Positions 3,810 to 31,192 of a stretch of 64,000 bases of DNA are shown here, in pieces. The stretch's first letter is position 1, and every line of letters begins with the position of its first letter. The position numbers and the translations under genes are program-made. The notes under the pieces were generated by a model, which searched no databases, was not told where the DNA came from, and saw nothing but the letters and a program-made list of their open reading frames with translations. The stretch lies in contig OX467092.1 of the NCBI GenBank assembly GCA_950106755.1, positions 28,488,582 to 28,552,581 of the forward strand, written 5' to 3'. This DNA is from Climacium dendroides (Eukaryota > Streptophyta > Bryopsida > Hypnales > Climaciaceae).

Positions 3810-3840
3810 AAGGCCTTATTTGTTAAAATGAGACAAAATG
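3810..3840 (+). repeat. Left terminal inverted repeat of element 1
   Basis: AGGCCTTATTTGTTAAAATG plus AGACAAAATG pairs with the reverse complement of 22921-22950 with about two mismatches. A further partial TTTTGAGAC motif follows within 20 bases. Confidence 0.75.
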
Positions 3841-5293: not shown

Positions 5294-5499
5294 TAAATAA
5301 TTATTAATAAGCTCAATTCCTGCCATTTGCATCGATCAAGTAGTACTTCGAGGGCAAACAAATTCTTAAACATTGAACCAAAAGATGATTGATAAAAAAA
5401 GAGCTTCATATATTAATTACAACGAATGGTCATTCACTTCAAATACATAGTACAAAATGCCTGGACCCCTGCATGCTCAATCACACGGAAGTGTAAACT

Positions 5500-6342: not shown

Positions 6343-6862
6343 CTGATCAAAGCAAAACAAATGAGAATTGGAGTTACCTGAATAAATGCAGAAGTGGGAG
6401 AGCCAACAAGCGGACAGATGCATTTCATTCCACTAATTGACTGGGGACTTCCGCGAGGGAGTGCTTTCATTGGTACCGGACGTTGCACATTTCTATGTGT
6501 ATTGAGCTGAGCATGAACACATGCACAAATCGGATCAATTAGACATCATTGTACAGAATCTATTGCAACGCTTATACTTTATTTAAGGTAGATTATAAAA
6601 TACATGTCAAAATTTCTTTTAAGTATGGATCGTCAAGACTGCGCATTGAGGCCTACGCTATACTATTCTACACGCATGTCGACCACAGACACAGGATCCG
6701 TCCGCGCAATTCATTCAAGGATAGGCACGCCATCCTGTCAAGCATCATGAATTCGAATAAGAGTCGGCAGTTCATGCGTACCGCATTCCAAACATCCACA
6801 CAATATCAAACGACTATCACACTCTCCACCTAAAATTAATACTCTGGATTTGAGGAGTTTAC

Positions 6863-8388: not shown

Positions 8389-8439
8389 CTGAATCAAGAG
8401 AAGAGGACATCAGTGAGTCGTAGGGGAACAAGGAGAGGT

Positions 8440-8642
8440 TATTGTCGTGTCGGGGATAACAAGAGCATCCTACAGGCTTTGTTTTGTATGAAGAGCAAAG
8501 ACAAGAGCATGACAGGAAAACGGATTATACAAACTAGGTGATTATCGTTGAGTCGAGGATAAACGAGACAATTCCTCGATAGATTCACGAACTACAGCAG
8601 CCTAACAAATCCACTCCACAAAGTGACCATTATCCTCGAGTG
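8440..8642. repeat. Palindromes in copy 1 intron 2
   Basis: Three degenerate palindromes of the element 1 type lie inside the intron between donor 8676 and acceptor 8389: near 8440 (TTGTCGTGTCGGGGATAAC), 8543 (TTATCGTTGAGTCGAGGATA) and 8627 (TTATCCTCGAG, half site). Confidence 0.7.
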
Positions 8643-8676
8643 AATGGTAGTAAATGACATTGATAACGTGACCTAC

Positions 8677-10004
8677 CTTTGCAGCAAGCATGAGCTTGAC
8701 TTCGGTATAAATTCCAAGCACGTTCTCGCTAGGGACTGCAAATGCTTGGAGGATCTCTAAATAGAACTCCATTCGGAGTTCAGTGGGGTGAATTCTCCAC
8801 TTGCATTCTGTATTCCTGTGCGCATCCTTGTAATACGAACATGTTTCCGAAGGCGCTCGATACTCTGGCTTCATGAAATCCCGTACAGATGAAGTGAATT
8901 CGTTCTCTTTCTTGAAGAGGAAGAGAAGAAGAACATCTGGGGCGGCGCCTCGGTTCATCACGTTGTTGAGCATTTCCGCTTTGCATGGGATGTACTTGGA
9001 CTTTAGTATGTCGTACTCCGCCATGTTCAAGTCAGCGAAGCTAACAGCCGCGCTCACATCCTCACTATCACGTAATATGAAAAGCCACACGTTGGCTACA
9101 CTCATACTTGGCTCCAACTTGTCGTCCAAGAAGTCCAGAAATGGGTCTATGGCTGCCTCGACTGCTGTGGGTTTTGATCGAGGGACTTCTCTCGTGTCAA
9201 CCACTGCAAGATTCACCTCCCGACGGCAGTAAGTGAATCAGTTAGTGGTGACAAGCGCCTTCGCCGTGACATCCATGCCGCGTATCTCCACTCCACCGCT
9301 CAATTCAGGAAGACTGTATTTCAGCTTCATGAAGCGATTGTACATGTGTAGAACGTCTGGGAATTCTTTTTCGAGGTCCGCTACGCGCTTCAACCATGCA
9401 TCATTCCGTAGGCGCTTTTTAAAATAGTCGGCCTTGATGTACGAAAGGAGGAAATCCCATGTAGCAGAAGAGAATCGGTGGCGAGACTTCCAAGACCTCC
9501 ACCGCTCATCGATTATGTCCTTCCGGCTATCTAGAAGCTTTAAGTCAGGCTTGATGCTCATCAAGTCTTGAATCACGATTTTCTTCCTCTTCCTTCGCTT
9601 AGTCCAGTCCGTACTTGTCATGTTGTCCACTACTAACACCTTCATTCTTGAAACTGAAAGCTTGGGATATGGTGCAACCCGACCAGGAGTAATCCCAAGC
9701 AGATGTTGTGCCTGTTTTCCGAAATCCTTGTCAGTGAAATGGCCAGCATGTTTAAAGAACTCCCTTCGTAATCCGGCAGGCTTCAATTTGTACCCTTTAT
9801 TTTCCTTATACATTTTAAGGGTAGCTGGGTCAATGAGCTCGCCTTCACCGTGCTTTGTCAAGAAGAGTTTCCAGTGATCCCACAACTCGTCCGAGAGGGT
9901 TATTATCTGGATTTCGTTCTTCAGGTCCGACGGACCCCTATTGTTGCACCGTCTCCTTTTGGATTAATATTCTGGAAACGATCTACAACTGCATCGGTAA
10001 AGCT
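8677..10004 (-). pseudogene. Copy 1, exon 2: two unassigned conserved domains
   Basis: Acceptor TTTGCAG|AGC and donor GCAAAG|GTAGGT bound this exon. The first part (WDHWKLFLTKHGEGELIDP) matches copy 2 (YNLWSEVISSAAHGDLIDP). The second part carries HPTELRMEFYLEILQAF, matching NNTELRMEFFLNLVRKF in copy 2. A frameshift near 9925 separates the exon start from the LKNEIQIIT segment, and a TGA at 9238-9240 lies between the two parts. I do not recognise either domain. Confidence 0.6.
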
Positions 10005-10138
10005 CTGCAAAGAAGAGGTTATGGAGAAATGAGGACAGAGAGAGAGGATGATAAGAAAAACATAGAGTTCTATTTAAAATTCAAACTATTGATCAATGAA
10101 TACAAGACGAAAGGAATTCAATGCTGTAGTGCAGCAGG

Positions 10139-10163
10139 TATCGTCGAGTCGACGATGGTGGTA
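10139..10163. repeat. Palindrome in copy 1 intron 1
   Basis: TATCGTCGAGTCGACGAT lies about 15 bases inside the donor GTGAGT of intron 1. It is a near-perfect dyad of the element 1 type. Confidence 0.75.
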
Positions 10164-10176
10164 TGCTCTCACTCAC

Positions 10177-11589
10177 CTTGTAGTTGACCGGACTGTATAC
10201 AGCCTTGTTTTGTCGCACCACATGATCAGTCACTTCAAGAGTGGGACGCTTGCAGGCGATCCAGATGTTCCTACAGCTGATTATTTGATTCCCCCACGTC
10301 AGCTGCGCATGATCTAGGTGGTTCGTTGCATTGTAGAAGCGCAAAATGTGTCGAAGTTTGTTTGGGTCCAACGTCCAAACAATGTATGCGTCCCACCTCT
10401 GCAGTTCCACACACCTACTTTCACCGCACCCTTGCTTCTGAAGCTCCTTGGATGCTATTATATTGTGTTGGCCATTGATAATCATGAACTGGCCATTTTC
10501 AATGTCTTCCCACTTCTGGGGTTTTATTTTCAAGAGTTGATTATTTCTGTCCACTGGAGTCAAGCATATTTTCTGCCGCTGCTTGATGTCGATGAGTTGG
10601 ATGAGCTGCTCTTTCACGGACTTGACCATGTCCTCTTGCAGTGCACGGATTATATACTGTTCTTTCGCAATCACGCATTGCTTGATGTCCACACTAACAG
10701 TGTTCTGATCGAAGAGAAAACACTGCTTGTGTTCTGCCCAGAATTCCCTCTGAATGAGTGCGTGCCTCTGAAACTCTTCCATCGGCTCTTCTGATTGAGT
10801 TCCAACTGATGTCAATGCAGACCCCGAGCTACCTGAACCCGTGGCACCTCCCACTAAACTTTTCCTTCTTCTCTTACTTGGTGGTGTTGGGCTCGGATCA
10901 ATGGAACCCTGAGTTTGAGTCTCCAGCATGGGTTGACTAGGTTGAGTCCCCCTACTTCTGCCTCCTCTACTTCCAGATGGCAGGTTCCGCTTTCCAGTCG
11001 ATTCTCATTGTTGAATATTACGTATTTGCCCTCCCACACTTGGAGGAGCTTGAACGTTTGACAAAGCGTACCTATCTAATGTCTGGAAGATAAGGCTGAG
11101 CTTGGTCGCAGTAGCTTTGCCGGTCCCGGTTTTCCATGGAAGATATCCGCTATCTATGAATTGCTGATTGAAGGACTCCATTTCAGAGCCCTCCAATAAT
11201 GTCATGAGGTTCTCAAGGTCAAACTTTGCTTGATTTGAGTTGACATTGAGCACTATTGAGTGACAATGTTTTCCGGCTTTCCCAACGTCATCTACCTCAC
11301 GTAGGACGACCGCAACGTAGTTGTTGTGGTGAGCATCTATGAACATCACCTTCTCATTCAAATTCCACACTAGGTAACCCGGCTGCCCAGTGACTTTGTA
11401 CCAGAGAAAGACGTAGTCTTTCCATCGGTTCACACCAAAACTCCAACTCGCAACATGCGATTTGAACTGGAATAGTTTCCCGTAGCTATCCTCCATTTCT
11501 GAAATGAAGGGTCCATCTTCGACAGGATTGACGAAGGGTTCAAGGTGGTGCTTTATCACTGAATAGTCGTACGCATCCTCCGAATCCAT
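10177..11589 (-). pseudogene. Copy 1, exon 1: N-terminal domain and INGQH (ParB/DGQHR-like) segment
   Basis: Translation starts at 11589 (MDSEDAYDYS) just after an acceptor-like CTTTTGACAG, so the 5' UTR may be spliced. Residues 1-194 form a domain of unknown family (contains KTGTGKATATKLS). A TGA at 11005-11007 interrupts the frame, which continues through a basic linker (PSKRRRK) to the motif FMIINGQHNIIASKELQ at roughly residue 365. The G-Q-H-x3-A spacing resembles the signature of DGQHR and ParB/sulfiredoxin folds. Copy 2 has FYIINGQHSVTASKMM at the equivalent place. Matching on one motif alone is weak evidence for the fold. The exon ends AACTACAAG|GTGAGT. Confidence 0.6.
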
Positions 11590-11699
11590 TCTCAGGTCCT
11601 GTCAAAAGGTGTGCATGATTGGAATTTAGTTTAAGCCTCTACGCTCCGTTTCCAAAAGATGTCCTATGAATTTGCTTTAGTAAAATTCACATAATTGGA

Positions 11700-12475
11700 C
11701 ACAGCATCGTCGACTCAACGATAACTAGTGTTTGGGAATGATTCCACTAGCTGCAAATTTGAGTGGTTATTTCATGTGAATGATATGTGGAGAACGTTTG
11801 GGACTACTCGAGATTACTATTGTTTTTTTTGATGTTGTATCAATGATTTAAGGATACAATGTTTTTAATACAAAATTATGGGGTTTTCTGGAAAATATTG
11901 TTCTTTACCTCCATTTCAGTTCAGTTTTGTTTATCTGGCTCTTATCGGATGATTGACTTCTATGAATGATGGTATGCATTCTAGTGGTTAACATCATTTA
12001 CTTCCATGTTATCCTCGACTCGAGGATAACCAGGGATACTCCACAGGTTCCTAGGATGTCTGCATAGGATTGAATTTTCTCAGTTTATCTCTATTTTAGT
12101 TCAATGTTGTTATTTCCGCTCTTTTCTGATGATTGTCTTCTATGATTGATTGTATGCTTTCTAGTGGTTAACTTCAATTAACTTCAAGTTATCCTCGACT
12201 CGATGATATCCAGGGATACTTTACAGATATCTAAATTGTCTGGCTTTCGTTGATTTATCTCAGGTTACCTTCCATTTTAGTTGAATTTTGTTTTTTGTGG
12301 CTACGATTTGATTATTGTCTCCTAGAAATTATTGATAGCTTCCTAGTGGATAACATCAGTTACCTCCAAGGTATCCTCGAGTCGAGGATAACCAAGGATT
12401 CTTAACAACTATCTAGAAAGTCTGGATACCGCTAAAGTGTCCCAGGTTATCCTCGACTCGAGGATAACCTTGACT
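11700..12475. repeat. Upstream palindromes of copy 1
   Basis: Five dyads of about 22 bases lie upstream of the leftward gene: near 11708, 12014, 12188, 12371 and 12448. The consensus is TATCCTCGACTCGAGGATA, with the 11708 copy closer to the array at 17.8-19.3 kb. The intervening 150-190 base blocks are themselves similar (TTCTATGATTGAT, TCTAGTGGTTAAC, ATTTTAGTTCAAT recur), so this is a degenerate tandem array. Confidence 0.8.
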
Positions 12476-13780
12476 TCTGCTGGGGACCTGTCTGGGGCAT
12501 TTCGTGGAAACCCTAATTTTCGCATCTAAACCCTAAATGCTAGCATGATGGAACGAATTAGTTTTTCTTTCTCGACTTCAGTGGACAAACCTGGGACTTG
12601 GAAGACGCTTCCTCTGTGAACTTTGAACTTCAGATGCTCAACATATCCTTCGAATTCTGAAAATGCCATGTACAATGCAATTTCATTAAAGAAATGTAAG
12701 GTGCACGATCTGGAAAGATGTGATTATGCAAAATTCAAGTGGGAAACAGTGCAAGACACTACAAACTACAACCTGGAATCCAAACCGGGTACTTCAGCTC
12801 TTTCACTACTTACAAGCGTTCACAAACACCCTAAACAAGACATGCGACCCCAAAAAAGAGCCATCAAAGCGCTGAAAAACAAGTGCTCCCAACAAATTCG
12901 TAAACCACTCCGCCAGGACCACTGTGGCACACAAAATCGGAAGAAATGAACAGCATGAGCACTCACAATCCCAAACAAAAGCGCTGAAAAAGACGCTGAC
13001 AAACACAAACAGAAGACCGCAACAATCAGCGCGCACAAAAATATAAGCGCTCACTAATACACTCAGAAGCACAAGCCTTCCAAAGCCAGCGTCCACAGAT
13101 TGAAAACATTAATCCTTCAACTTGTGGAAGCACTCGGTCACTCAGTGTACACCCAAAATGAACTTGTACGATGGAGCTCAGAAGTCAGAACATGAACCTC
13201 GTACCTTGCAAAGCGCCGAAAAACCCGATTGAACTCACAAAATTGATTGTTGCCGCTCCCAATTGAACTCACGGATCGTAGCAACTCCTGATTGAACTTG
13301 CGGAATAAAGCTCACCTTAAACCCTGAAATTCGCAGATCCAACAGCTCACGATTGAACTCGTGGAAAAAATCTCAGCCTAAAGCCTGAAACTCGCGGAAT
13401 GGAGCTCAGCTTACTCACCCTAAATCTTGAATACACTTACGAAATGGAACTCACCCTAAGCCACAACCCTTGCAAAACGCAATTGCTCGCACTTCACACA
13501 ACCCTAAAACACAATTGTGCAAACAACTCACGCACTGAAGTTGATAGACAGACCGTAGAAGTCGCAACACCCGGAAACCTGCATCGCTTGAGGAGGTCGA
13601 CGACGACTATCCAAACCTCACGCTCGGCATACCCGAACCTCTTGCGGTAGTACCCAAACCTCCCCTTACAACACCCGAACCTGCCTATGACTTACCTAAG
13701 GTAGAAGGTCCTAAAAGCACTCACCTAAAGTGGGTACACCCAAAACCGTCAGTTTTTAGAGTTTAGCCTAGTTACTATTA
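12476..13780. other. Non-coding stretch inside element 1
   Basis: Contains recurring phrases such as GATTGAACTC(A/G)C and CCCTAAA near 13230-13470 and a CCCGAACCT-rich block near 13570-13690. No supported gene. It may be leader or promoter sequence of the leftward gene or the edge of a nested insertion. Confidence 0.4.
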
Positions 13781-15435
13781 TAAAAATGGTAAAATTTTTG
13801 TATGTTCTTTGTTGGCAAGGGAATGGAGGTTCGAACGCACCAGAGAACACTAGATTTGGATACAATATGCAAAAGTTTTGGAAAGTCAAATCTATGACTA
13901 AAAGCGCTCCAATCAAATAGGTATATAACTGATTTTCAAAATGTTCACATCATATACATGGCGCTTTTAGGTCAAGCGCCATTTTGGAGGTGAGTACCTT
14001 CAAGGAAATTAGGCCTTCTAGAGATCGTGGAGGACTTAAATTTATTTTGCCTTTTTTTTAGTGGAAGAGAATTTGAAGATTTATTTATTTCACGTATATG
14101 CTTGCCCAAAAAATAGTGGATGCAACCAATGAATGAATGAAACGACAAGCCACTCAATTCCAACTATTATGACAATTATTTTTCCTAAAACTGAAATCCC
14201 TGCTCACAAATCCTTGCTCCCTACTCTTTGCTCCCTACTTCATGCTCACATATTAGCATTCCCCTAGGGCTCTTTTTTTGTTCCTTTATACAGCAATAAT
14301 GCAAGAGACAACGTGCCGGAAAAGATGAAGTGGTTGTAAAAATCCATTAATAGGATGGGTAAAACCGTTCATGCAAATCTTTTAAAGCATCCAACAGAAG
14401 TTTGTGGGTTTAGAAATTCTCTAGTGATTTGATAATCATGCAAACCACATCCTTCAATTTGAAGTGCTGTAACTTGTGCATCCAATGTTCAAATTCAATA
14501 AAATTTATTGGAGAATTTACGCTCTTTTTTGTAGTTTGTGTGGTAAAATTTTCAGATGAATCCAAGATTTACCAATTCTCAGGAAGCCAAACTACGTTTG
14601 CAAGTTCCATTTGAGTCCTTCCACATGGTTGGGGAGTTTCCCATCACAGAAAGTTAAATCCATTTCAACACCCATGTCCAATATTTTAGAGCCTTTTGTA
14701 GGGGTGGTTCTTAATGCCTAAACCATTTTAGAGCCTCCCCCTATAAGCTTGGCCCAGAAGTTAAGTAGCCACTACAATGGATTATTTCATCCAAGATGGC
14801 CATCATTAAACCTTAAACAGACATGTTAGTAGATGTGGAGATCATGAATTCTACAACTGTCAAAAGAATTGTTTTTAAATAATTCAAAAGCTTATGTTGT
14901 AGAAGATTTTTCATTTCCACCCCTAATGCCAAGGCCAAATAGTTGTACTTCTGTCGTACAAAAGAACATGCTCTCTCATTCATCAACCAAAAAGCACTTT
15001 GAGCGTCTTTCAAAAGTTAATGTTTGATGAAGTACAATATTTCTCTATGCATCCATCTTTTTTAACAAAAAAACACTTTTTAGATGTATTCATAATTTGA
15101 ACTTTGAGTTATGAATTCCAAAGTTCCATCTATATTTTGTAATGAGATTAAAAAGATTTAGCCAAAAACAATTACTTCTATATGGCAAGAAGTAGACATT
15201 TAATTTGGATTGGGGTATTTGTAATAGGTGAGCCTAGGAAGACCTAGAAGTCAAGGTTTGGCAAAAAAATTCAAGAACTAAACCACTTATAAAATTACTA
15301 TTAAACAACTTAGGAAATTTTAAATGAATTAAACCACTTAGAAGAGACCATTCTATTTTGCGTAGTACATTATTTTGACTACCATTCTATCTTTGTGAAT
15401 GGCTACACCACTTTTGAATTGAAATGATTCATTCT
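13781..15435. other. AT-rich nested sequence, no gene seen
   Basis: AT-rich, with a small hairpin GGCGCTTTTAGG/AAGCGCC near 13961-13983 and a CTCCCTGCTC-like minisatellite near 14195-14255 that recurs near 42830-42895. No reading frame is supported. Confidence 0.45.
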
Positions 15436-16690
15436 AATTATCTTATTTACACCATTTTTTTTGTAGTTTAAATGCCCACAATATAGAACATATCCCTAAT
15501 TATATTTTATTATGCAAAGCATGAACCCTTCTCCTTAACCCAAGACTCCTGCTCTTCCATAAATGAATGGCAAATGAATTGAGCAACACTATCTCCCCAT
15601 TTCTTTTCATTGCTACAGTATTCCAACACACTTGCGTGAAGAAAATAATGGGAGAGTAATTGAGCAACACTATCTCTCCATTTTTCTTCATTCCTCTCGT
15701 ATTCCATCACACGTGTATCACAAAATGGCAGATACATTGAAGAATACTATTTCCCCATTTTTTTCATTGCTACATTAATGTATTTTAATGTATGTCTATC
15801 TTTTACAACATTCACCATTGCATATATTTCATTCATCATTCAATAAAATTCTATTTTACATTTCAATATATGCTTACTTAGAAAAAAAATTATACAAAGG
15901 TTTCAATAATTTTTATTTGAAAATGTATTGAAATTTTAGTTTTGCATTCTATCAAATACATAAAATCTCTAATAAAATTCTAATGATGAGTGCGTACCAT
16001 AGCATGTGTCAAAAATATTCTCAATGAGTGGGAGCTCATTTTTATGCTATGCTTACATGATTCATAATGACCCATTTTGTTTTGGTGTTTCCGGTTATTA
16101 TATATTTAAGAAAAGAAAAAATTTAGAAGTGAAATATCTTATTTACACCACATTTTTTTAGTTTAAATGCCCACAAATCCACAACCTACAACATACCCCT
16201 AATTATATGATATTATCTAAAGCATAAACCCTTATCCTTAAGCCAAGACTCTGGCTCTTCTATAAATAAATGAAGAATTAATTGAGCAACACTATCTCTC
16301 CATTTCTTTTCATTTCTATGGTATTCCAAAACACTTGCATGAAAAAAACAATGGGAGAGTAATTGAGCACATTATCTCCCCATTTTTTTTCATTCCTCTG
16401 GTATTCCATCAAACGTATATCAGTAAATGGCAAATACATTAAGCTGCATTGTTTCCCAATATTTTTCATTGCTACATTATTCCATCACACTTGCATGAAA
16501 AAATGGGAGAATAATTGAACAACAAAATATCCCAATTTTTTTTCATTTCTCAAGTATTCCACCAAACGTGCATGTATAAATGGAATATAAATTCAACAAT
16601 ACTATTTTCCATCTTATTCATTGGTACATTATTCCATTGCACCTTCATGAAGAAATAGAAGAGTATCTCCATTTTTTATCATCAATGCGA
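15436..16690. repeat. Degenerate ~75-bp tandem repeats in a split direct duplication
   Basis: A unit of about 75 bases (core ATTCCATCACACTTGCATGA, then ATGGGAGAGTAATTGAGCAA and CTATCTCCCCATTTTT) is repeated about three times at 15540-15775 and about six times at 16240-16690. The 15436-15740 and 16138-16480 segments are also direct copies of each other, including the leading ATGCCCACAA block. An inverted copy of the 1653 repeat lies between them at about 15776-16010. Confidence 0.65.
15770..16012 (-). repeat. Inverted copy of the 1653-1900 repeat
   Basis: The reverse complement of this segment follows 1655-1900 closely, sharing TCATCATTAGAATTTTAT, GATAGAATGCA, the TTTGTATAATTTTTTT block, AAGCATATATTGAAATGTA and TTGAATGATGAATGAAA in order. 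Confidence 0.7.
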
Positions 16691-16739
16691 CCCTAAACCC
16701 TATTTGCATGATGAAATGACAGAACATAAACCTTAAAAC

Positions 16740-17010
16740 CTACAGCCCTAAATATATTCAAAACCCATTTGTCATGCTCCAAACCCTAACCCAAAAGCAT
16801 TAACCCTAAACCCCAAATCCTAAACTTCTAAAAATTCACAGCCTACAAATCCTAAACCATAAAGCGTTAATCCAAAACCGTAAACCTCTAAAAATTCATA
16901 GCCTAAAAACCCTAAACCCTAAATCCTAAACCCCTACAAATTCATAGCCTGAAAACCCTAAACCCTAAACCCTAGAAGCCGTAAACCTCTAAAAATTCAT
17001 AGCTTGAATA
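16740..17010 (-). repeat. Degenerate telomere-like repeats with a ~60-bp unit
   Basis: CCCTAAA-type repeats are interspersed with AAAAATTCATAGCCT at about 16830, 16895, 16935 and 16993. This is an old interstitial telomere-like tract in the C-rich orientation. Confidence 0.6.
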
Positions 17011-17783
17011 GCCGAAATCCTAAAACCCAAAAATGGATTTGATAGAAAATAAGCCACCAAGAAAAGGCCTAAAAATATTGAGCAATCGATGGGCACATGA
17101 CCTGAGAAGTCAACCTACTAGAACTATAGCAGACAATTCTGTATATGGACAATTTTTTTTTTGAAAAAGCATTAGTGGAGCCACATCTTTTTTGTAGAAA
17201 GCTGGCAAAAGCGCCTTCAAGCAAATGACTGAACAGCCAGGAATCAAGGAGTTTGCAGGAATTTTGAAATTTGGAATTGCCCGCTAAAATGTTCCCGCTT
17301 TCTCCAACTTTTTGCCCATCTCTTGCCACGGACAACTTCACTTGCCAGACACGCCTTCTTCCACAAACACGCCGAGGAGACTCTTTTGCTCTTGCTATTC
17401 TCTTGCGCTTCAAGTGTGTCTGCATAGCACATTGACAAGTTCAGGTCCTCAAATTTTTTTCTTCTTGTTTGTGAGTTCTTAGATAGAAGGTGTAGTTTGT
17501 ATTTAAATTAGTTGCCATTGACCTCGTCTGGTGGTGAGTTAGTTTTGTACATATGGATGTCAGGAAGTACGTGAAACTAGTCATTGAAGGTCCATGTTTG
17601 TGACATCTCAATGCATGAAGACGTTATATTTGTTGAGCGAGCCTGTAGACTATAAGGAATTGGTTACTCTTGCTTTTGGTGAAGACAGTTGTAACAAAGT
17701 TGTTTGCAATGCCCATTTTTTGCAGCGTGAATGTCGGAGCATTTCATGGATAATTCCATTACCTCAATACTGTCATTGAGGTA
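17011..17783. other. Non-coding stretch before the 207-bp array
   Basis: No supported gene. A short minus-strand frame (17425-17069) has no recognisable similarity. The boundary between nested DNA and native element 1 sequence lies somewhere here. Confidence 0.4.
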
Positions 17784-19285
17784 CTTATCGTTGAGTTGAC
17801 GATAACTGTGACCTTTTTGACTTCTGGTTATCGTCGAATCGATGATAACGTAGTCAGATTTTTTCAATCGGCATTCTTAGCAAATGTGTAGCTACTTCAG
17901 TTTCTTCTGATTCCAAAGCAGAATGTGCATCGGGTTGAATTATTTCTTTGCCAAATTGAACAAATCATGAAAGGAATTTCGTTGAGGATAGTTATTGTTG
18001 AGTCAATGATACCTCTGATTTCTTTTGTTCCTAGTTATCGTCGAGTCGATGATAACGTAGTTAGATTTTATCAATCGGTATTCTTAGCAAATTTGAAGGT
18101 ACTTCAATTTCCTATGATTTGAAAGAGGAATGTGCATTGGGTTGAATTTTTCCTTCGTTACAACTAACGAAACATAAAAGGAGTTTCATTGAAGATCATT
18201 TTCGTTGTGTCAACGATAACTCTGAGTTCTTTGACTTCTAGTTATCGTCGAGTCGATGATAACGTAGTCAGTAATTTTCAGTTAGCATTCTTAGCAAATG
18301 TGTAGCTACTTCAGTTTCTTCTGATTTCAAAGCAGAATGTGCATCGGGTTGAATTATTTCTTCGTCAAATCGAACAAATCATGAAAGGAGTTTTGTTGAG
18401 GATAGTTATCGTTGAGTCAATGATACCTCTGAATTCTTTTGCTCCTAGTTATCGTCGAGTCGATGATAACGTAGTCAGATTTTATCAATCGGTATTCTTA
18501 GCAAATTTGAAGGTACTTCAATTTCCTATGATTTGAAAGAAGAATGTGCATTGGGTTGAATTTTTCCTTAGTCACAACTAACGAATCATGAAAGGAGTTT
18601 CATTGAAGATCATTATCGTTGTGTCAATGATAACTCTGAGTTCTTTGACTTCTAGTTATCGTCGAGTCGATGATAACGTAGTCAGTAATTTTCAGTTAGC
18701 ATTCTTAGCAAATGTGTAGGTACGTCAATTGCTTATGATTTCAAAGGAGATTGTGCATCGGGTTGAATTATTTCTTCGTCAAATCGAACAAATCATGAAA
18801 GGAGTTTCGTTGAGGATAGTTATCGTTGAGTCAATGATACCTCTGAATTCTTTTGCTACTAGTTATCGTCGAGTCGATGATAACGTAGTCAGATTTTTTC
18901 AATCGGCATTCTTAGCAAATGTGTATCTATTTCAATTTCTTAAGATTTGAAAGAAGAATGTGCATTGGGTTGAATTTTTCCTTCGTCACAACCAACGAAT
19001 CATGAGAGGAGTTTCATTGAAGATCGTTATCGTTGTGGCAACGATAACTTTGAGTTCTTCGAGTTCCAGTTATCGTCGGGTCGATGATAATCTTGTCAGA
19101 AATTTTCAAAGGTGTAGATACTTCAATTTCTTATGATTTCAAACGAGATTGTGCATTGGGTTGAATTATTTCTTCATCACATCCAACGAATGAAGAAATG
19201 AGTTTTGTTGAGGAGAGTTATCATTGAGTCAACGATCACTCTGAGTAACAACAACTTCCGGTTATCGTCGGGGCGATGATAATGT
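17784..19285. repeat. 207-bp palindrome array upstream of the DUF7869 gene
   Basis: Eight units each hold two dyads. The second dyad of each pair (TTATCGTCGAGTCGATGATA) starts near 17827, 18034, 18241, 18448, 18655, 18862, 19069 and 19261: six steps of 207 bases and one of 192. The first dyad of each pair (TTATCGTTGWGTCAAYGATA) lies 43 bases upstream, measured at the first two pairs and similar elsewhere. Two unit types alternate, giving a 414-base higher-order period. The frames at 17925, 18339 and 18729 are by-products of this repeat, not genes. The array ends immediately before a TATA box. Confidence 0.9.
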
Positions 19286-19289
19286 CAAC

Positions 19290-19297
19290 TATAAATA
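19290..19297 (+). promoter_or_regulatory. TATA box of the DUF7869 gene
   Basis: TATAAATA lies 7 bases after the last palindrome and about 210 bases before the first ATG of the long frame. The same octamer precedes the NTPase gene at 44389. Confidence 0.55.
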
Positions 19298-19507
19298 AAG
19301 TGTTTGCAACTTTGCATTGAAAAGTATTTACTTAGATGAAGATGAATGACTGAATCATAGCACAAATCATTGGATCATCCATTCATCGATGTTGTATTCG
19401 TAAGAAATTATAGAGACATGATGTTAATATTAGTGAATATAGAGTATGTTTAGTTTCTAGTATACTAGAAGTTGCTGCAATAGAACATCTTTATCTTTGA
19501 CTCAACA

Positions 19508-22391
19508 ATGAATCTAAGGATTGGTCTTCGTGCTTGCAGAATGGATTTCCATGGGTTTGATGAGTTCGCGAATCCAGTTCCCCCATTTCCACTTGATGTT
19601 CAGGTATGCGAGGGGATTGCTCGTGCAAAATGGGTCTTACGATTTGTCACTCTTCGAAACGAAGATGGGGTGGACCTTGCAAGGGAGGTTTGCCAAAACG
19701 TTGACCCAGAGTTAATCATTGACCAAGATGGAAAGCCTCTTGGCGATGACCGGGTTGCCATTCAAATTGCTGAGTCTCTGAATGAGGAACTCTTCTCATC
19801 TGGCAATGTATGGTCACTTCGTTCCTGGGACATCAAGAGAATTTTTTTAGATGACGATGTCAGCTTATATGACCATGACCAAACCCATGTATATAACGCA
19901 GCCATGAACCCATCAAGCAGAAGAATTTGTAAGGGGGTTCGATCGTACGAAACAACTCGTGAAAGGATTGATCCAGAGATTCCACCCAAGAAAGAACTTC
20001 TCCTCTCTATGGAATCGATCACATCAATATCCACAAAATCATGTTGTCAGAAAAATTGTGTTCAACCTTTTCCGCGTGGGCAAATCCAAGCGATAAGGAC
20101 TGAACTATATTCAGGTGAGGACTTCAAGGCGCGTAGCAAGACACTTTTGGAGGTGCATAGGCAAATCCATAAAGACAGTGCTGGCAAAGAGTGGATTACC
20201 TTGAAAGGTAGAGAAGTGTGCCCCATTGCATGGTGGATCATTCATGGGATTGCAAGAGCTACGTTCTATAGGTACAAAGAGAAGGCTAGAATTGGGAAGC
20301 AAGCTCAGGTGCATGGAAATGTGGGATCTAAAAAACCCCGCATGCATACTCTTCAAGCTACTGCCACGCTTCGAACTCTTATTGAGTCTGATGCCGATCA
20401 AATGCTATACAAAACAAGGACAATAGAGTCTGGGGAGAAAGTTGCAGCGATGGTTCTACCTTCTGCTTTTCGTTGGAGTGACAAATTACCTAAAATCAAT
20501 GAGTCCAATGCAGAGTTCAATTTGGAGCCGATTTCTTCCAGTGGCTTGAGCAACATTCGCCGTCAGAATTTCCCTGAATTTGCTGCCAAGGCTCGTGGGG
20601 ATAGTTTTGCTAGGTGTGGCTTGTGCGATGAGTATAAGCAATTGAGGAGCGCTTGTTGGAAATCAGAGTCGTTTGATAAGTATACCAATATTTTGAATAC
20701 CCATGTTGCAGGTCAGAGGGCTCATAGAGAGTACTACTATGGAAATCGAGAATTTTCCGTGAGATGCCCGGACAAAATGTTGTGCATCATTCATGATAAA
20801 ATGGATCACTCAAAAATGGCTTCTCCACACTTTTCTCACAAGAACAAGTCGACGGAATCCTTCATGAAAATGCCTGTTGCTGTCACAGGTATGATTGCTC
20901 ATGGTCATGGCGATGTACGATATGCACACTATGGTGTGGGCATTTTCCCAACAGATTCGAATCATACCATTGGATCCATTGCAAGGTTGTTGCGGGATTT
21001 GGAAGGCCCGCCTAAAAATTCATCGAGGGCGTTATTTTCTATTGAGGAGGGGCAATCCACATTGACAAAGGCGCTTTTAAAAGGAGCAGAAAATTGCTTG
21101 GACTCCCTCCTTCCACCTCTAGAACAGCCACTTCCAGCTCAACCTCTCCCACCAATATTAATATTGCAATTGGACAATGCGTCAGGGGACAACAAGAATC
21201 GATATCTTTTTGCTTTTTGCTCTTTGCTTGTATACAAAGGCATTTTTCGTGAGGTATACATCAACTTTCTTATTGTAGGACACTCACGAAGACATTGATG
21301 CTCTTTTTGGTCGATGGAGTTCAAGATTGAAGACGAATGACTATCCAACACTTCCAAAGCTCATGAAGTCCTTTATGGATTGTGAAACGCACCCTGTGAT
21401 TCCTCATCTCATTGAGGAGCTCCCTGATTTCAAGAAATTTGTGGAGGGTTATTTGGGCACTAGTGGAGATGAATTAGGAGGGCATTCGAAAAGTCAACAA
21501 TTCAAGTTTTTTATGGATTCTTCAGGATGGCCTTTGATGGAGTATAAAAATTTGTGTACTGACCCAAAGTGGTTGCCAGAGCACGGCAATGGGATAAGAA
21601 TGTGGTCAGAGACTGAGGATGGACTTCCTAAAGTACCAAGTGGTAGCCCTAAACCTTTGGCTCCAGTTCCAATGAAAGCTCTTGAAGAGATAAAGAAAGG
21701 TTTGAATGGCTATGTTAAACATTAGAACAAAATGGCAAACAATGATCATAGTGGAGAGTACAGGCGGAAGAATGGTCCACTAGAAGAGTATTGGAAAGGC
21801 ATCAGAGCTGTTCTAGATGCACCTCTTCAGGTGCGAGCGGCATTACTTGATGGATTTTGGCCAGCTTCAAGGATTGCCAATGATGAAACAGATCAAATGC
21901 AAAGAAATGGCACATTGCGTGAAGAAAATGCAGAGGATGCCAACTTTGTTGGACGTAAGCGTGATCGTCCACGTTCTTCGTTTCATGTTGCTCATGATAC
22001 ACACGCAGGTTCTTTTGTTGCAGTGCGTCCTGTTGATGGTGATCCAAAACCATTTTGGCTTGCTAGGGCTATTACGGCTCCGAGTCCCGATCCAGGGCAT
22101 ATGCATATGATCAAAATCCAATATTGGAGGCCTACTTCGGATCGGCACATTAATATGGAGACATATGAGGGTTGGGACACCAAACAAGGAAATGTGTGGC
22201 GTGAAGATAGCGTTATACCTTCAACATGGTCAAGCACAGATTGTATCATGACAACTTGGAAGCCACGGTTTCGTGATGGAACTAAAAATCCAAAGGTGAC
22301 GGTTTCAAGTCTACAAATTCAAATTATTAAGGCATCAGTGGCAGCCTTCACGACTACTGCAAATAACGATGGTTCTATGATTGAAGAATGA
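19508..22391 (+). pseudogene. DUF7869 transposase-like protein
   Basis: A frame of about 960 codons, broken by a two-base deletion near 21281 and a TAG at 21723-21725. The central part has FARCGLCDEYKQLRSAC (zinc-binding CxxC), then CIIHDKMDHSKMASPH, ILQLDNASGDNKNRY, and, across the frameshift, IVGH and HEDIDALFGRW. These acidic motifs are the hallmark of DUF7869 proteins and are plausibly a DDE-type RNase-H-fold triad. The last 220 residues (FVAVRPVDGDPKPFWLARAI, then WDTKQGNVW) resemble the beta-rich module that usually follows DUF7869. The shortening of ACACAC to ACAC explains the frameshift. It is the best candidate transposase of element 1. I do not assign a superfamily. Confidence 0.75.
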
Positions 22392-22920
22392 CTTGTAGTT
22401 CATAATTTTATTAGACAAATGTTGTTTTGGTAGTTCAATTAGAGCACTCATTGTAATTATTAACAAGTTTGGACATGTTTACATTCATATATGTATTGGT
22501 TACTTTTATTATGGTAGTGTGCCTATGTATGAGAAATTTATTTCTATTAATAGTAAATTTTTTTATTACTATTGCGTCTCCAAGTATTGTATTCTAAATG
22601 TTTTTGGTGAATTTTTGGTAATTCATATGTTTAATTTCATGTTAAAGTTTTCTATCCTCCATGTATACATTAGTTTTTTGACATATGAAAGTTTTGATTT
22701 TTAAAAATGTCTCACTTCATAATGTCTTTGACTATTTTGTTTTCTTTTTTACAAAGGAATTAGTAAATCGAGATGTACTTTTGAGTTTGTGCTACTTTAG
22801 TTAATAGTATAAAATTAATGAAATACATATTTGACATTTTCAAGTCTCAATTTAATGAACAGTCTCAATTTAATGAACCCTTCTTCCACCTTGCATGTAT
22901 GAAAAATTAAAATGAGACTG
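22392..22920. other. Right subterminal region of element 1
   Basis: AT-rich and non-coding. The last 100 bases repeat the terminal motif: TCTCAATTTAATGAAC twice (22844-22880) and AATTAAAATGAGAC (22905-22918), facing the terminus as an internal inverted repeat. Repeated subterminal motifs are common transposase binding sites. Confidence 0.55.
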
Positions 22921-22951
22921 CAATTTGTCTCATTTTAACGAATAAGGCCTT
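22921..22951 (-). repeat. Right terminal inverted repeat of element 1
   Basis: Ends TTTTAACGAATAAGGCCT, the reverse complement of the left terminus. Confidence 0.75.
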
Positions 22952-24200: not shown

Positions 24201-24214
24201 TGAACGAAACTGCA

Positions 24215-25300: not shown

Positions 25301-25354
25301 AACATAGCAACAACTCTTGTTCTAACAACATCCCGTTTGGAAAATGAATGCAGA

Positions 25355-26791
25355 ATGGATGACCAAATTGAGAAGCTGGAGGCCTTCTACGTACGCTGTG
25401 CGCACAAATCCTCTGGGGAGGAAGGGGACGACTTTGACAATGACGGAGACTACTGGGAATTCAAAAATCCCGAAAAGGTTGAGAATTGGAGTCTCCACAT
25501 GATTCCTTTCAAGAACCTCATTTGCTTCGCTGCAAAGTTCAAAGACACCGACCATTTCTTCAACATATCCTTTGATGAGAAGATAAAGGACGTTGCCCAC
25601 GACAGTGGTCCATTCTTGAAAATTCGGTGTGTTACAGCTGTGACTGGTACACCCGAAAGCGAGCAGTACCACTTCACTATTTGCTTGGACTCCTCAAGAT
25701 GTGCCTTCAACATATCACACTTCCTGTCAACGCTGGAACCGACTGAGTACAGAACGGAGATTCCCGACCTTGAGAAGAAAGTTGACCACAACTACTTCAA
25801 GACAAAGGACAGGAAGTTGGCAACAGGGAAGGCCCTATACTCTCGCCTGAAGACACTCCTAAACGACTTCACAATTCTGAAGACGAAACTTGAGCTGAAG
25901 AAGAAAGACATGACTGTCAGAACTGTCTCCCAGGAGTTTCCAAGTAACGTGGAGGGACAGAGCTCAATGGGTACACTTAGAACCCAACAGAGTCGGGGGA
26001 CAAGAAAGTCCATGCAGGCCGCTACTCCAGCACGAGCTCCCAGGAAAAGTAAGTTCGCATCAACCTCAACAACGGCAACAGTAGCGCAAGACCCTAGTGC
26101 AGTTTTACTAGGGGAGCTGAGTTTTGTATCTGCGGTAACTGAGGTCCCGGTCCCTTATGACGCCAAGAAATCGCACGATTACATTGCGTCCGCGGAGGCA
26201 TACAAGGCCTACTGGAAGCACTGCACGGACGCCTACATCTTTGGCTTGGAGGATAAGAAGACAATTTCCATTGAGCAGCTCATCAAGGCCCTAGAGGACT
26301 TAAACATCCGTAGCCATGAAATGAAGCTCGTGGAGGACATGATGACATACCTCTGGAAAATGCCAGATAAGTCCACAAAACAAACATTGTGTGTCATGCC
26401 AGTGGATTGCTTCGAGAAGCCAAAGCCGGAGGACTGGCTAGCACTTGAAAGGAAGAACTTCTACATCATCAATGGGCAGCATAGTGTGACTGCCAGCAAA
26501 ATGATGGTAGACCAAAACCTTGACGAAGAGATTGTCAAGAACTTTCGTCAATGGGATTGCTATGTGGTCTGGTCCACAAATGCCCAGAAACTACGGGACA
26601 TATCGGCGTACTACAATAGGGTCAATCACTTCGTAGTGCAGAAGCCCTCGTGGTCAACAAACATTCTGGGAGCTAGAAAAGTGTAGGAACTCATGGGGAG
26701 GCCACGCAATCCGAAGGAAGCGGCCCCAATAGCGACAATGTCCAACGTCAGGCGAAACGCTGAGAGTACAACAAATAAGAAGAAATTCATG
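25355..26791 (+). pseudogene. Copy 2, exon 1: N-terminal domain and INGQH segment
   Basis: The ATG at 25355 (MDDQIEKLEAFYV) matches the start of copy 1. Residues 1-190 are the unassigned domain (KTKDRKLATGKALYSRLKTL is the best conserved block), then a Ser/Thr/Arg-rich linker, then FYIINGQHSVTASKMM, WDCYVVWS and YYNRVNHF. Only one in-frame stop occurs (TAG 26684-26686); the frame then continues to KKKFM|GTAAGA. The single frame spanning what copy 1 splits by TGA shows that the two parts are one protein. Confidence 0.65.
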
Positions 26792-26802
26792 GTAAGAGAT
26801 TC

Positions 26803-26977
26803 AGGTCGAGTCGACCTGATCTGAGAATGTCGTCTTCCACCTAGTATTCCAGCCAGCATAGGTGATGTATTGATTTACTTCACGTGATAATGAATGAAGA
26901 GTTCGAAGTAAGTAAAACGACAAAGGTGTATTTGACGTTCAAAATGAAATGTGTAGTTTAGGTCGGTCCGAGCTGAA
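26803..26977. repeat. Palindromes in copy 2 intron 1
   Basis: Two dyads at about 26803 (TCAGGTCGAGTCGACCTGA) and 26960 (AGGTCGGTCCGAGCTGAA). The first begins about 10 bases after the donor and the second ends a few bases before the acceptor. Confidence 0.8.
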
Positions 26978-26982
26978 TAGAG

Positions 26983-28042
26983 AGCTCCAAATTGACCGAG
27001 ACATACAAAATTGCGTTGCAGAAATTCTCATCAGCAATGTACAAGCGGTTCGCTCTGCTAGATGTACTAAAGGCCCAGAAGGCTGCAAAAGGCAAGGACG
27101 CCAAGAAGAAGCTCGAGATCCGAAACGAGCTGAAGATAATCACAGCTCCGGACGATGTGTACAACCTGTGGAGCGAGGTCATTTCTAGTGCTGCGCATGG
27201 GGATTTGATAGACCCCAATACTAGACTGAAGTACAACGAGAAGGCCACTTGGAAGCCCGAGCAAGGGAATCTGACGCATGAGTTCTTCAAAGTGCTCGGA
27301 AACCTTTCCTTCAATGACTTGTCGAAGCTGGCCAAACATATTCTGCATCAGAATCCAGGGAGCAAGAACAAGGACTAGAACAAGAAACAATTTTGTGCCC
27401 CCAAAATCCACTGCATACTATCGTCCATATGACGTTATGTATAAGACGCACCAAGATTGGCCTAGAGGTGTGCTCACTGCAGAGAACGTGAAGGACATCA
27501 AGCTTGGAGTGTGGGACCTACGTTACACCCCGAATGTGGTGTCAAAGTCTAAGTGTACGCCAGCCGATCCATACTTCGCTGCAGTTGTCGAGTCCTTCCA
27601 AGAAAAGGGCCAGCCCCTTCTCGAGGACATTCCGGTGTGGGTGCTCATTTGTTCCGACCTCACCGAACAAACGCAAGCACTTCACTTCATAGACAACAAT
27701 CCCGTATTGAAGGAGTACTCCATGAGTTTCTCTAACTACATGCCCTCACCCAATGAGCGTATCGGTGACTTGTCTGCACGAAGCAAGAAGGCGGTGGAAC
27801 CAATTTACCTGACCATCCTGCAAAGCCCAAGCAATGCTAGGACGGTGAGAATGAGGTCTTCCTATGATGCTCCTAGTACTGAAACATTTATGAGGCCCGG
27901 GGCTTACAACAAGCTAGAGTTCAGGATTAATAATACTGAGCTACGGATGGAGTTCTTCCTCAATCTTGTGAGGAAATTCTGCGCTCCTGGAGCAAGCGTA
28001 ATGTCATTCTTCGCTGGGTCGAAGTTCACGTGTGCTGCGATG
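26983..28042 (+). pseudogene. Copy 2, exon 2: two unassigned conserved domains
   Basis: Starts after GAATAGAG with SSKLTETYKIALQKF. First domain contains HGDLIDPNTRLKYN and HEFFKVLGNLSFND. A frameshift within the repeated AAGAAC/AAGGAC stretch near 27375 moves into the frame reading NNFVPPKSTAYYRPYDV. Second domain ends FRINNTELRMEFFLNLV and TCAAM|GTAAGC. The order and junctions match copy 1. Confidence 0.6.
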
Positions 28043-28092
28043 GTAAGCCTGAACACAATGAATTCCACAATGTAATGTTTTGGCTATGGTTA

Positions 28093-28275
28093 AGGTCGAT
28101 TCGACCTGAATAAAATGGACATGTATTTCTTCTTGAAATTCTAAGGTGATAGAAACCAGGTCAGGTCGACCTGACTCGTAGCATTGACTGGATTGTGTTC
28201 CTCCATAGTTTGGCTCGACCTGACCGGTTCTATTGAGTGTCCAAGAGTGAACTTCAGGTCGGGTCGACCTGACCC
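28093..28275. repeat. Palindromes in copy 2 intron 2
   Basis: Dyads near 28093 (AAGGTCGATTCGACCTGAA), 28158 (AGGTCAGGTCGACCTGAC) and 28256 (CAGGTCGGGTCGACCTGAC), and a half site near 28213. Confidence 0.8.
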
Positions 28276-28376
28276 AATCTACTGCTGACGTTACGTGAAA
28301 TACCATTGTATCCTCGTTAGGGAATTTTCATACTATCGTAATCTGATAGTATGTGACATTGTGTGTGACTTTGCAG

Positions 28377-29352
28377 ATGAGTGGGGTTAATGTGTTTGCT
28401 GTGGGGGACTCGGAGGAGTCTGACCAGTGGACTGAAATTGCAACCACTGCGAAGAAACTGGATAAGAACGATTTTCTTCCAGAGGGATACTTTGTCGATG
28501 AGGGCAAATTCCCGCGCCGACCATTGGGGTCAAGCACGCCTTCGTCATCAAAGCGCAAGGGGAAGGCAACTAGAGAGGCAAGCATGCCGTCCGGTCGGAG
28601 GTCATCTACAATCATATTGTGTAAGTCCTCCGACAGCGATGGGGCAGCCGGTGATGACGACGACGACGACGACGACGTTCCCATGGATCGGAGCACCCCT
28701 CCAGTGATCCGCTCTCAAAGCATCCGGGGATCATCAACGTCGTCGGGTCAACCACTTGACTCATCTACCATGCCGTCTCCAGCCTCCAGGGAGAAGCGAA
28801 AGAGGGCAAGATCGCAAGCCGACGACGACTATGATGTAGAAATTGCAGAGCTGAAGAGGAGGCGGGAACTGGATCAAATGATGTTTGACAGGCAAGCCAG
28901 GGAGATGGCGGAGTTGCGACAGTTTATGGTGGCAATGTCACAAAAGAACGACTCCAAACTGGAGGCCATTATCAACAATCTTGGTGGGGCCATGCCTCTA
29001 GCATCCATACAGCCGTCTCAGGTTGACCAAGTGCTTTTGCTGTAGGGAGCGCCAACAAGACCAACGATGAGTGGATCCTCAAGCTTACCCTCCACTCCAC
29101 GATTGACTGGGGTGCCTTCTGTCTCTCTCACTCCTCTTGCAGGTTCCGCAGATCCTCCAACTCCTCCTCCTACTGAGGAGTGCCCCTCCACCCCTCCACC
29201 TCCACCTGATGACGAGGACATGGCTCGAGTTCCACTTGATGGTGGCAGGTCCTTAGAGACCTTGGAGTCTAGCCCGAAGATGCCCGCGGATCCTGCCATC
29301 GCCATTGATGATGATCGGAGTCATGCATTGGATGGCCAGGATGCACCATCAG
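28377..29352 (+). pseudogene. Copy 2, exon 3: acidic coiled-coil region
   Basis: Begins ATGAGTGGGG after CTTTGCAG. It has the conserved TAKKLDKNDF, a run of eight Asp residues, an ELKRRRELDQMMFDRQAREM helix, then a TAG at 29043-29045, and a Ser/Pro-rich tail ending CAG|GTTGAC. Phase matches the following exon. Confidence 0.55.
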
Positions 29353-29602
29353 GTTGACCACACAATCACTCAATGTCATTTGTATAGAATTAGTTCCACT
29401 CGAGCTGATTTGTGTCATAGGTTGTACTTAGATAGAGCCCCTTAGTATGGGAGACAATACTTTTTGATAGAAAACAATTTTTTGGCTAATCCATATCTTC
29501 ATGTAAGATGATGACTTTTTATACTGAATTTTATTAATCAATTATACGGATTTTTCTGTAAAAATTTTAAGTCTTGTTTGTCTGGCCCTTCCTGAATTGC
29601 AG

Positions 29603-29835
29603 AACCTCCTCTGATGGCTATCTCAACTGGACCAAATGATCTTCTGAAATCTATTGCTCCTGTACAGCATGTACAATGTCCAACATTTGGTTGTGGTATT
29701 ATAGAAGCTACAAGTGGAGGTGCATTGGAATCTGAGTCCATGCACTTAGATGATGACGTCTCTATTCCCGACACTCAGCTTCTGGAGATTGAAATGCCAG
29801 ACCCTGTTGGACCGACGTTGTCTTTGCCGGAAAAG
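29603..29835 (+). CDS. Copy 2, exon 4: short linker exon
   Basis: Acceptor GAATTGCAG and donor GAAAAG|GTAACC, with both phases fitting exons 3 and 5. Contains HVQCPTFGCGIIEA. No similarity recognised. Confidence 0.5.
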
Positions 29836-29991
29836 GTAACCTCGTGCCCATGCGTCCTTGATCTCTGTGCTAATAGGTACCTTTGTATTCATATATAATC
29901 TGCGACAATTGGATTTTGCCTTTTTCCTTGAGTTTCGAAATGTGTTAGTGCAGCTTAGTAACTAGCTGCACATTTGTCCGTTTGATAGCAG

Positions 29992-30792
29992 GGATCGGTT
30001 CCTCCATCTGAACGTGGAGATACGTCGAAGGATGTTGAGATTCCATTGACGTCCAGGGTGACCGTCGCCGAGAAGTGGCTGAATGTTGTCTTGGACTTGA
30101 ATGGAGTCTTGTGTGTTTGTGAAGACACCAAGTACAAGGGGTGGGCTGTGCATGTCGGGAATGCAGACCAACCGCACTCCACCATGATTCCTGCGATTGT
30201 GGGACCGAAGGCGGTCTTTATCCGCCCAAATTGCGCTCATTTCCTTCGTGAGCTAGAATTGATAGCACACGTTTCTATTTGGAGCTCCATGAAGAAGTTT
30301 ACCGTTCAAAAAATCATCGATTATCTTTTTGTTGGTCTGGATAAGCCTCGCATTATACTTGGGCAGGAGTCTTGCACGACGCTCAAGTGTGAGGAACAGG
30401 GCCGGATAGTCACATTCAGGGAGCCAGGCACCACCAAGGACCTGTTCGTGAAGGACGCGAACACCTTGTTTAATAATTTCAATGGGCAATTTCTTCGAGA
30501 GAATACTGTCATAGTTGACGATAGTCCTATGAAGCACTTCATGAACAAGTCGGAGAACGTCGTTCTCCCCATCAGTTGGTCTCCCAAGGGTAACGGCCCC
30601 AGGGACTCATATTTGGACATGGTCCTTTTGCCCTGGCTCAGGCGACTTCACATAGCTCGAGATGAAGGGTTGAAATCATTTCGCAAGAGTAGTGCAGGGA
30701 AAATTGGGCGGAAGATGTTGTATGATGAGAGAAATCGTGGCATGTACAATAGTCTTATGGATGCAGTCAGAGTGTCTTCAGCGTACCGATAG
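29992..30792 (+). CDS. Copy 2, exon 5: FCP1/NIF-type HAD domain
   Basis: An uninterrupted frame after acceptor GATAGCAG. WLNVVLDLNGVLCVC is the HAD box with DLNG, VSIWSSMKKFTVQKI follows, then RIILGQESCTTLK, and NTVIVDDSPMKHFMN with the DDSP motif, ending LLPWLRRLH. This order is diagnostic of the FCP1/NIF/Ctdsp phosphatase fold. Family members dephosphorylate Ser/Thr of proteins such as the RNA polymerase II tail. The Asn at the general-acid position questions catalysis here. The exon ends in TAG without a clear donor. Confidence 0.7.
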   Translation, partial: GSVPPSERGDTSKDVEIPLTSRVTVAEKWLNVVLDLNGVLCVCEDTKYKGWAVHVGNADQPHSTMIPAIVGPKAVFIRPNCAHFLRELELIAHVSIWSSMKKFTVQKIIDYLFVGLDKPRIILGQESCTTLKCEEQGRIVTFREPGTTKDLFVKDANTLFNNFNGQFLRENTVIVDDSPMKHFMNKSENVVLPISWSPKGNGPRDSYLDMVLLPWLRRLHIARDEGLKSFRKSSAGKIGRKMLYDERNRGMYNSLMDAVRVSSAYR

Positions 30793-30893
30793 CGCACTGC
30801 ATTTCATTACTGTTCATGAGCCACGTGGATGCAGTGACTATGTCATCGTCTAATCGGCGTTACGAGAGGGTAGTTTATTTATTGCTTTAGTTC

Positions 30894-31080
30894 AGGTCGA
30901 GTCGTGCTGAATGGCATGTGGATTGTTCTCTGAGTTTCTAGTGAACTTCAGTTCACCTCGACCTTAATGGCTCGTGCATTCGCATGTATGGTTAGAGATA
31001 TACGTAATTTCTGTAATATAATTTTTTTATGAATACCTTTCTGTATTTTCTTCTTCCTCCAGTTTAGGTCGGGTCGACCT
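30894..31080. repeat. Palindromes between the HAD and last exon of copy 2
   Basis: Degenerate dyads near 30894 (CAGGTCGAGTCGTGCTGAA), 30950 (half site) and 31066 (AGGTCGGGTCGACCT). Confidence 0.7.
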
Positions 31081-31192
31081 CATTCGATGGCCAGGACTTC
31101 CTAGACTGCAAATTTGCTATTGGAGTTTATTTGTAAATGTAATGACAGTTACAGCTTTTGATTAAATTGTTCTAATCTCTTTGTTTTCTTAG

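Follow-up and report, generated by a model that had tools for sequence, protein, structure and literature searches.

Moss transposons whose accessory proteins and 21-bp dyad sites diversify together

Two nested transposons, element 1 and element 2, each with its own set of 21-bp dyad sites, lie where a contig of 28.55 Mb ends in the moss Climacium dendroides (GenBank assembly GCA_950106755.1, contig OX467092.1, positions 28,488,582 to 28,552,581 of the forward strand). This whole stretch of 64,000 nucleotides is referred to as the window, and TTTAGGG repeats stand at its contig end. Both elements follow one plan, a gene for a DUF7869 protein, the putative transposase, and a divergent multi-exon accessory gene, with the element's own dyads before each of the two genes and more of them in the accessory gene's introns. 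The accessory protein and its site diversify together, as observed in the agreement of the protein tree with site type and in the exclusive site sets of the two element families. Sites that change in step with a protein suggest a self-recognition system, which may serve the protection of the element from silencing.

The dyad of element 1, M1, is TTATCSTCGASTCGASGATAA, and that of element 2, M2, is TTCAGGTCGNNNCGACCTGAA. In the window, 25 odd palindromes of 21 bp pair at 9 or more of their 10 positions, and 19 of these are M1 or M2 sites; 200 dinucleotide shuffles gave 2.71 on average and never more than 9. Perfect 21-bp palindromes number three, against a shuffle mean of 0.11. M1 sites lie at 8439, 8542, 10138, 11704, 12009, 12189, 12371, and 12447, and in the array at 17785-19282. 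A sequence-only reading of this DNA had described two element-specific dyad sets, upstream and in the introns of homologous genes, and this description holds. The M1 and M2 sets do not overlap, the accessory genes A (minus strand, element 1) and B (plus strand, element 2) match exon by exon with the order kept, and sites map to both places. It had further proposed that placement is shared and sequence is not; the placement is indeed shared, but the dyads are also alike in length (21 bp), in their TCG-N3-CGA core and in having TT/AA at the ends, the differences being at positions 3-6. The extent it gave, 8440-31080, proved too small, as element 1 with its array spans 3810-22951 and the start of element 2 is outside the window, to its left.

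Its claim that dyads are absent from exons stands for element 2, where none of 17 dyads is exonic in a stretch that is 65% exonic (a chance of about 2e-8 under even placement, with exon ends set by eye). The claim does not strictly hold for element 1: of its 11 M1-like sites beyond the array, three (4893, 7095, and 7257, with 3-4 mismatches) fall in exon-like open reading frames (ORFs), which counts against a purely non-coding placement. Save for these three weak sites, the family-specific motifs are dispersed through non-coding DNA, in promoters and introns, and the terminal repeats of element 1 hold none. CpG-to-TpG/CpA is among the common dyad changes, which would fit methylation at some time; changes at the dyad ends are commoner still.

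Element 1 is nested in element 2, since parts of window 1-3745 and the window from 23003 onward match the spacer and right part of L090, an element-2 copy elsewhere in which the counterparts of window 3745 and 23003 are only about 100 bp apart. L090 reads as 11 M2 dyads before the DUF7869 gene, the spacer, and 12 M2 dyads before gene B. The element 2 of the window begins left of it, where its DUF7869 gene and a 10-dyad M2 array sit (L091). The common plan of the two elements is recognized because L090 and L091 supply this gene and array for element 2. In each large transposon the accessory gene is oriented against the putative transposase gene, as seen with genes A and C of element 1 and with gene B in L090 and L091. 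The terminal inverted repeats of element 1 (28 bp, 1 mismatch) are flanked by CTTCCTT and CCTTGG; candidates for the target-site duplication are CCTT, or TTCCTT with an asymmetric end.

The genome contains at least 95 copies of gene B scored at 90% identity or above (1095 first-look candidates), and 151 matches of gene A, with identities from 100% down to 48% among the matches listed. At up to 4 mismatches, 30 family A loci hold 251 M1-like sites and no M2-like site, and 30 family B loci hold 367 M2-like sites and no M1-like site, the loci of each family being near copies of one another. Genome-wide, exact sites number 1330 for M2 and 547 for M1, and 0 for a reversed control. Among the 50 places listed for each on contig C1, 28 M2 and 29 M1 sites have a listed copy of the same family within 20 kb, and none of the 100 has a listed copy of another family nearby. 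In more distant A-clade copies (20 stretches, L070-L089, hand-picked from the 151 gene A matches), an M1-type dyad stands behind exon 1 in 18 at a lenient threshold.

Further site types are found with further proteins. Three contigs (L004, L005, and L006) of the cyanobacterial metagenome-assembled genome (MAG) AVDCRST_MAG81 encode relatives of the accessory protein and have the same dyad placement; with their introns and moss-type transposon genes, they are by their look contaminants of moss-like DNA. Some of their ORFs are filed in public databases as bacterial proteins. L004 and L005 carry M3, TTCAGCTCGASTCGAGCTGAA, so that M1, M2, and M3 have a common TCG-N3-CGA core and different arms. The L006 dyad, TTATCCTCGASTCGAGGATAA, is of M1 type, and its protein is 43% identical to gene A over 281 residues versus 30% to gene B over 244. 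Even the core can change, because intron 1 of B-clade subfamilies of the same genome carries TTTAGCGCGAGTCGCGCTAAA-like dyads (L092, L094) or TTCAGCGCGGTTCGCGCTGAT dyads (L095, L096). The arms TTTAGC/GCTAAA of L092 and L094 match the KorB operator half-sites, probably by chance. A scan of IMG/VR gave no match to M1 and three to M2 (L001-L003), which were set aside as chance.

The comparison of protein tree with dyad type, as proposed by the sequence-only reading, gave clear agreement. To place the five dyad types, the protein tree requires 7 changes, versus a mean of 22.7 when shuffled, with none of 200 shuffles as low, and M1 and M2 each occupy one side of a branch. This is a quick tree with a long-branch warning. 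It types 37 of 96 database proteins (up to 2 mismatches, no tie; the other 59 are out), omits L082 and L087, in which no dyad was found, as well as L092-L098, and has the remaining 18 of L070-L089 hand-labelled M1. In intron 1 of ten A-clade representatives, identity is 78% across the dyad and 25-31% in the windows flanking it. The core identity is inflated by choice because these hand-picked rows were aligned at the dyad; arm positions 3-5/17-19 alone, which avoid most of this bias, are 93% identical, and position 6 with its partner 32%. Additionally, the reading frames of database proteins that extend beyond exon 1 spell dyads. When the 64 possible arm triplets were ranked in the 96 of 114 proteins with a usable tail, ATC came top at each of the three thresholds in clade A (found by the L006 query), as did CAG at the two lower ones in clade B (found by the gene B query).

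Several observations weigh against so simple a correspondence. At the strictest threshold (18/18), TAG exceeds CAG in clade B by 7 to 3. The finer types mix in the protein tree (M3 with 4 changes, M4 with 3, and M5 with 3), 2 of the 20 A-clade stretches (L082, L087) showed no dyad, and of seven B-clade introns fetched, four have a clear dyad, two a degenerate one (L097, L098), and one none that is clear (L093). The dyads may not be confined to the elements either: on contig C1, 13 of 50 M1 sites and 2 of 50 M2 sites stand alone, away from listed copies. Above all, tree agreement alone is no proof of recognition, because protein and site travel in one element. The co-evolution put forward by the sequence-only reading is therefore borne out in part, as agreement of tree and site type, within a clear limit: whole-element shared descent would likewise give such agreement, yet the dyad of the intron is conserved between flanks that are random.

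In predicted models, the accessory protein has a PH-like fold (weak), a ParB/sulfiredoxin (Srx) fold, and a CcrM-like methyltransferase fold, CcrM being the top structural match of the last. The ParB-like and amino-methyltransferase domains belong to adjacent exons of one gene; their folds were predicted apart and from different copies, and the joining of the exons is a prediction from DNA and ORFs. Amino-methyltransferases have the catalytic motif (D/N/S)PP(Y/F/W). The moss protein reads D-F-R-x-x-P at that site (D in 54 of 57 rows, R in 54 of 55, P in 48 of 55), and in 38 of 40 rows its S-adenosylmethionine (SAM) motif, F-x-G-x-G, has K as the last residue. The modelled methyltransferase part has thus probably lost its catalytic motifs and, with them, its function. 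The ParB likeness is one of fold only, and several results weigh against it: Foldseek E-values are 0.018 or worse, Pfam gave no ParB family for the window protein, none is among the 25 of 35 Pfam families listed for its 91-row alignment, and PF02195 is neither matched by the window protein nor listed, within the same 25, for the other 90 rows. The family has NGQHS at the place of a ParB-type nucleotide motif. A search of the accessory protein against PDB sequences returned nothing up to E 10, and protein and alignment scans of IMG/VR gave no confirmed relative.

We lean towards the view that the accessory protein is a self-specific DNA binder on the dyads of its own family, anti-silencing in the manner of VANC or VirB. 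As a dimer, it would bind the 21-bp dyads ahead of the two genes and inside its own introns, and loading at many sites would keep the non-coding DNA of the element unsilenced and its genes expressed. Binding, nucleotide-dependent loading, and anti-silencing are steps that we infer, with the action after binding modelled by analogy on VANC of VANDAL transposons and on ParB-like VirB against H-NS. The ParB-like protein is taken as the reader because its own introns carry dyads in nearly all copies examined, and because palindromes suit a dimer and the fold relatives use palindromic sites.

VANDALs are Mutator-like elements (MULEs). The sequence-only reading had named them as a precedent, which is a fitting analogy with differing proteins. 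A MULE-type transposase was not matched by the two scanned gene C ORFs, which gave DUF7869 instead; DUF1985 and DUF287 did not turn up at E up to 0.1 when 8 ORFs of gene A and 6 of gene B were scanned with Pfam, nor are they among the Pfam families listed for the relatives in two alignments (25 of 35 families in one of them). According to parts of PMC5735166 and PMC10398659, Arabidopsis VANC proteins act on non-coding motifs of their own element and induce loss of DNA methylation. As described there, the systems are alike in having family-specific motifs in non-coding parts, tandem repeats, motifs within introns of the accessory gene and ahead of the transposase, and related proteins with different target motifs; VANC is unlike in having DUF1985/DUF287 and shorter motifs.

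The clamps VirB, ParB, Noc, and KorB combine helix-turn-helix site recognition with cytidine triphosphate (CTP) motifs. They are bacterial and have no methyltransferase part. Sections of PMC10770331 describe VirB as a ParB-like anti-silencer that loads at a site and slides, and the group resembles the moss protein in predicted fold and clustered palindromic sites; spreading and VirB anti-silencing may, by analogy, serve as its model. A narrower form of our proposal, distinctly doubtful at present, is that a ParB-type clamp at self-made parS-like palindromes coats and unsilences the element, clamp and sites having split into several mutually blind specificities in a single plant genome, with a dead CcrM-like methyltransferase as site reader. 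Should the protein be a clamp, ParB-kind nucleoside triphosphate (NTP)-dependent DNA clamps would reach eukaryotic transposons, and plants would have a second origin of sequence-specific anti-silencing.

The main rival, which we judge improbable, is that the DUF7869 transposase binds the dyads, with the ParB-like protein as a passenger or as its regulator. In element 1, L090, and L091, the DUF7869 gene has an array immediately before it, a transposase and its site would co-travel equally well, and sequence alone cannot separate the two kinds of binding. Yet the sites are those of promoters and introns, with none at the element 1 ends; the accessory gene's own intron has them in the 18 A-clade stretches and the three MAG contigs, and on these contigs no transposase is in view, although the tblastn queries included gene C pieces. 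Less probable still is an accessory protein that is an active N6-adenine or N4-cytosine methyltransferase marking its own element at the dyads. CcrM, the first match of the fold, has GANTC as its site, and GANTC is the dyad centre in 121 of 126 family A dyads and 11 of 12 of L004 and L005, but in only 64 of 281 family B dyads and 2 of 4 of L006; GANTC as a universal centre, true of family A and not of B, was dropped. Self-marking is suggested for algal proteins in parts of PMC12477816, whereas both motifs of the moss methyltransferase part are replaced in the way given above.

It is very unlikely that the dyads are sites of a host transcription factor or repressor gathered by the elements. Their location in promoters and introns would suit such a factor, but several site types in one genome track the transposon protein family. 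The faintest chance is given to dyads working as RNA hairpins, for example in intron 1 splicing; by eye, the dyad is close behind the presumed splice donor in ten A-clade rows, against which each family conserves specific letters, beyond mere pairing, and many sites are found ahead of the genes. With several protein families each naturally paired to a DNA site in a single genome, a change of transposon-protein specificity becomes directly readable and testable.

Fusions of this kind have been reported elsewhere. Parts of PMC12477816 describe the brown algal (Ectocarpus) transposon Sola1-1_Ec32, with a ParB-like and methyltransferase protein, cite similar proteins for green and red algae, and guess that they bind and modify their own element. 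As in the moss, a ParB-like and an N4C/N6A-type methyltransferase domain are found in one protein, the gene lies opposite the transposase, and the element is about 20 kb. The moss element is unlike these in its lost methyltransferase motifs (sampled rows), its DUF7869 partner gene, the PH-like N-terminal domain and phosphatase-like exon of its protein, and its family-specific 21-bp dyad set; those parts describe no site set for the algal elements. Intact catalytic motifs are not known to be a requirement for this class of protein. Phage ParB-N6_N4 methyltransferase fusions, as presented in parts of PMC12704722, join the same two kinds of fold on mobile elements; they were surveyed with PF02195, unmatched by the window protein. 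A cognate dyad set for ParB-methyltransferase transposons was not found in the open-access PMC literature, subscription papers being outside our scope. ParB-methyltransferase accessory proteins in transposons are therefore already reported, and their presence in a moss, the loss of the catalytic motifs and, most of all, the cognate dyads were not found in print in that literature.

Table 1. Features of the two nested elements in the window
Feature	Position	Strand	Remarks
Left-hand spacer of the element-2 copy hosting element 1	1..3745	.	broken by other repeats
Element 1	3810..22951	.	19,142 bp; DNA transposon inside element-2 copy; 28-bp terminal inverted repeats
Left terminal inverted repeat, element 1	3810..3837	+	
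Gene A (element 1)	4355..11601	-	decayed copy with in-frame stops; collinear with gene B
Gene A exon-like ORFs, first four	11005-11601, 10093-11004, 9238-9963, 8602-9237	-	
Gene A exon-like ORFs, last four	7837-8409, 6836-7627, 5500-6093, 4355-5335	-	5500-6093 NIF-like phosphatase
Two M1 dyads, gene A intron	8439..8562		
M1 dyad, gene A intron 1	10138..10158		
Five M1 dyads upstream of gene A	11704..12467		partly within 180-bp repeats
M1 tandem array upstream of gene C	17785..19282		207-bp units, two dyads per unit
Gene C (element 1)	19484..22391	+	DUF7869 protein, putative transposase; directly after 207-bp M1 array
Right terminal inverted repeat, element 1	22924..22951	-	
Nine M2 dyads upstream of gene B	24216..25298		
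Gene B exon 1	25355..26791	+	PH-like and ParB/Srx-like domains (predicted); in-frame TAG at 26684
Two M2 dyads, gene B intron 1	26800..26977		at 26800, 26957
Gene B exon 2	27022..28042	+	helical part and CcrM-like methyltransferase fold, by homology to P0074
Three M2 dyads, gene B intron 2	28090..28273		at 28090, 28155 (weak), 28253
Gene B exon 3	28377..29351	+	ends set by eye
Gene B NIF/FCP1-like phosphatase exon	29993..30792	+	PF03031, E 2.6e-14
Three M2 dyads between phosphatase exon and last exon	30891..31083		at 30891, 30947, 31063

The gene B copy of the window is decayed, with in-frame stops and a gap of about 340 bp, which many other copies fill at window 27377-27383; other copies have open exon-1 frames. 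In Pfam scans of gene A and B exons, the phosphatase alone was above cut-off. FCP1/SCP phosphatases carry a D-x-D motif. The phosphatase-like exon (both window copies and L005 5170-6021) reads D-L-N-G in gene B and L005, and may be an inactive C-terminal domain (CTD)-phosphatase fold and an alternative 3' isoform. The two gene C ORFs scanned match PF25273 (DUF7869) at E 2.5e-25 and 5.1e-14, the first having DUF7869 only and the second also a sub-threshold CaMKII_AD. The species-named plant protein matches are those of Physcomitrium patens.

Telomere-like AAACCCT stretches and tandem repeats of 77 bp and 153 bp lie in the spacer of element 1 (window 15476-17032), and a 208-bp direct repeat of 97% identity links window 628-835 with 31846-32053. 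Pfam gave no match up to E 0.1 for another, perhaps transposase-like gene at 34589-42368, apparently split by an insertion (34589-36841, 37514-38188, and 41565-42368), of which the last ORF has a CxC-type motif.

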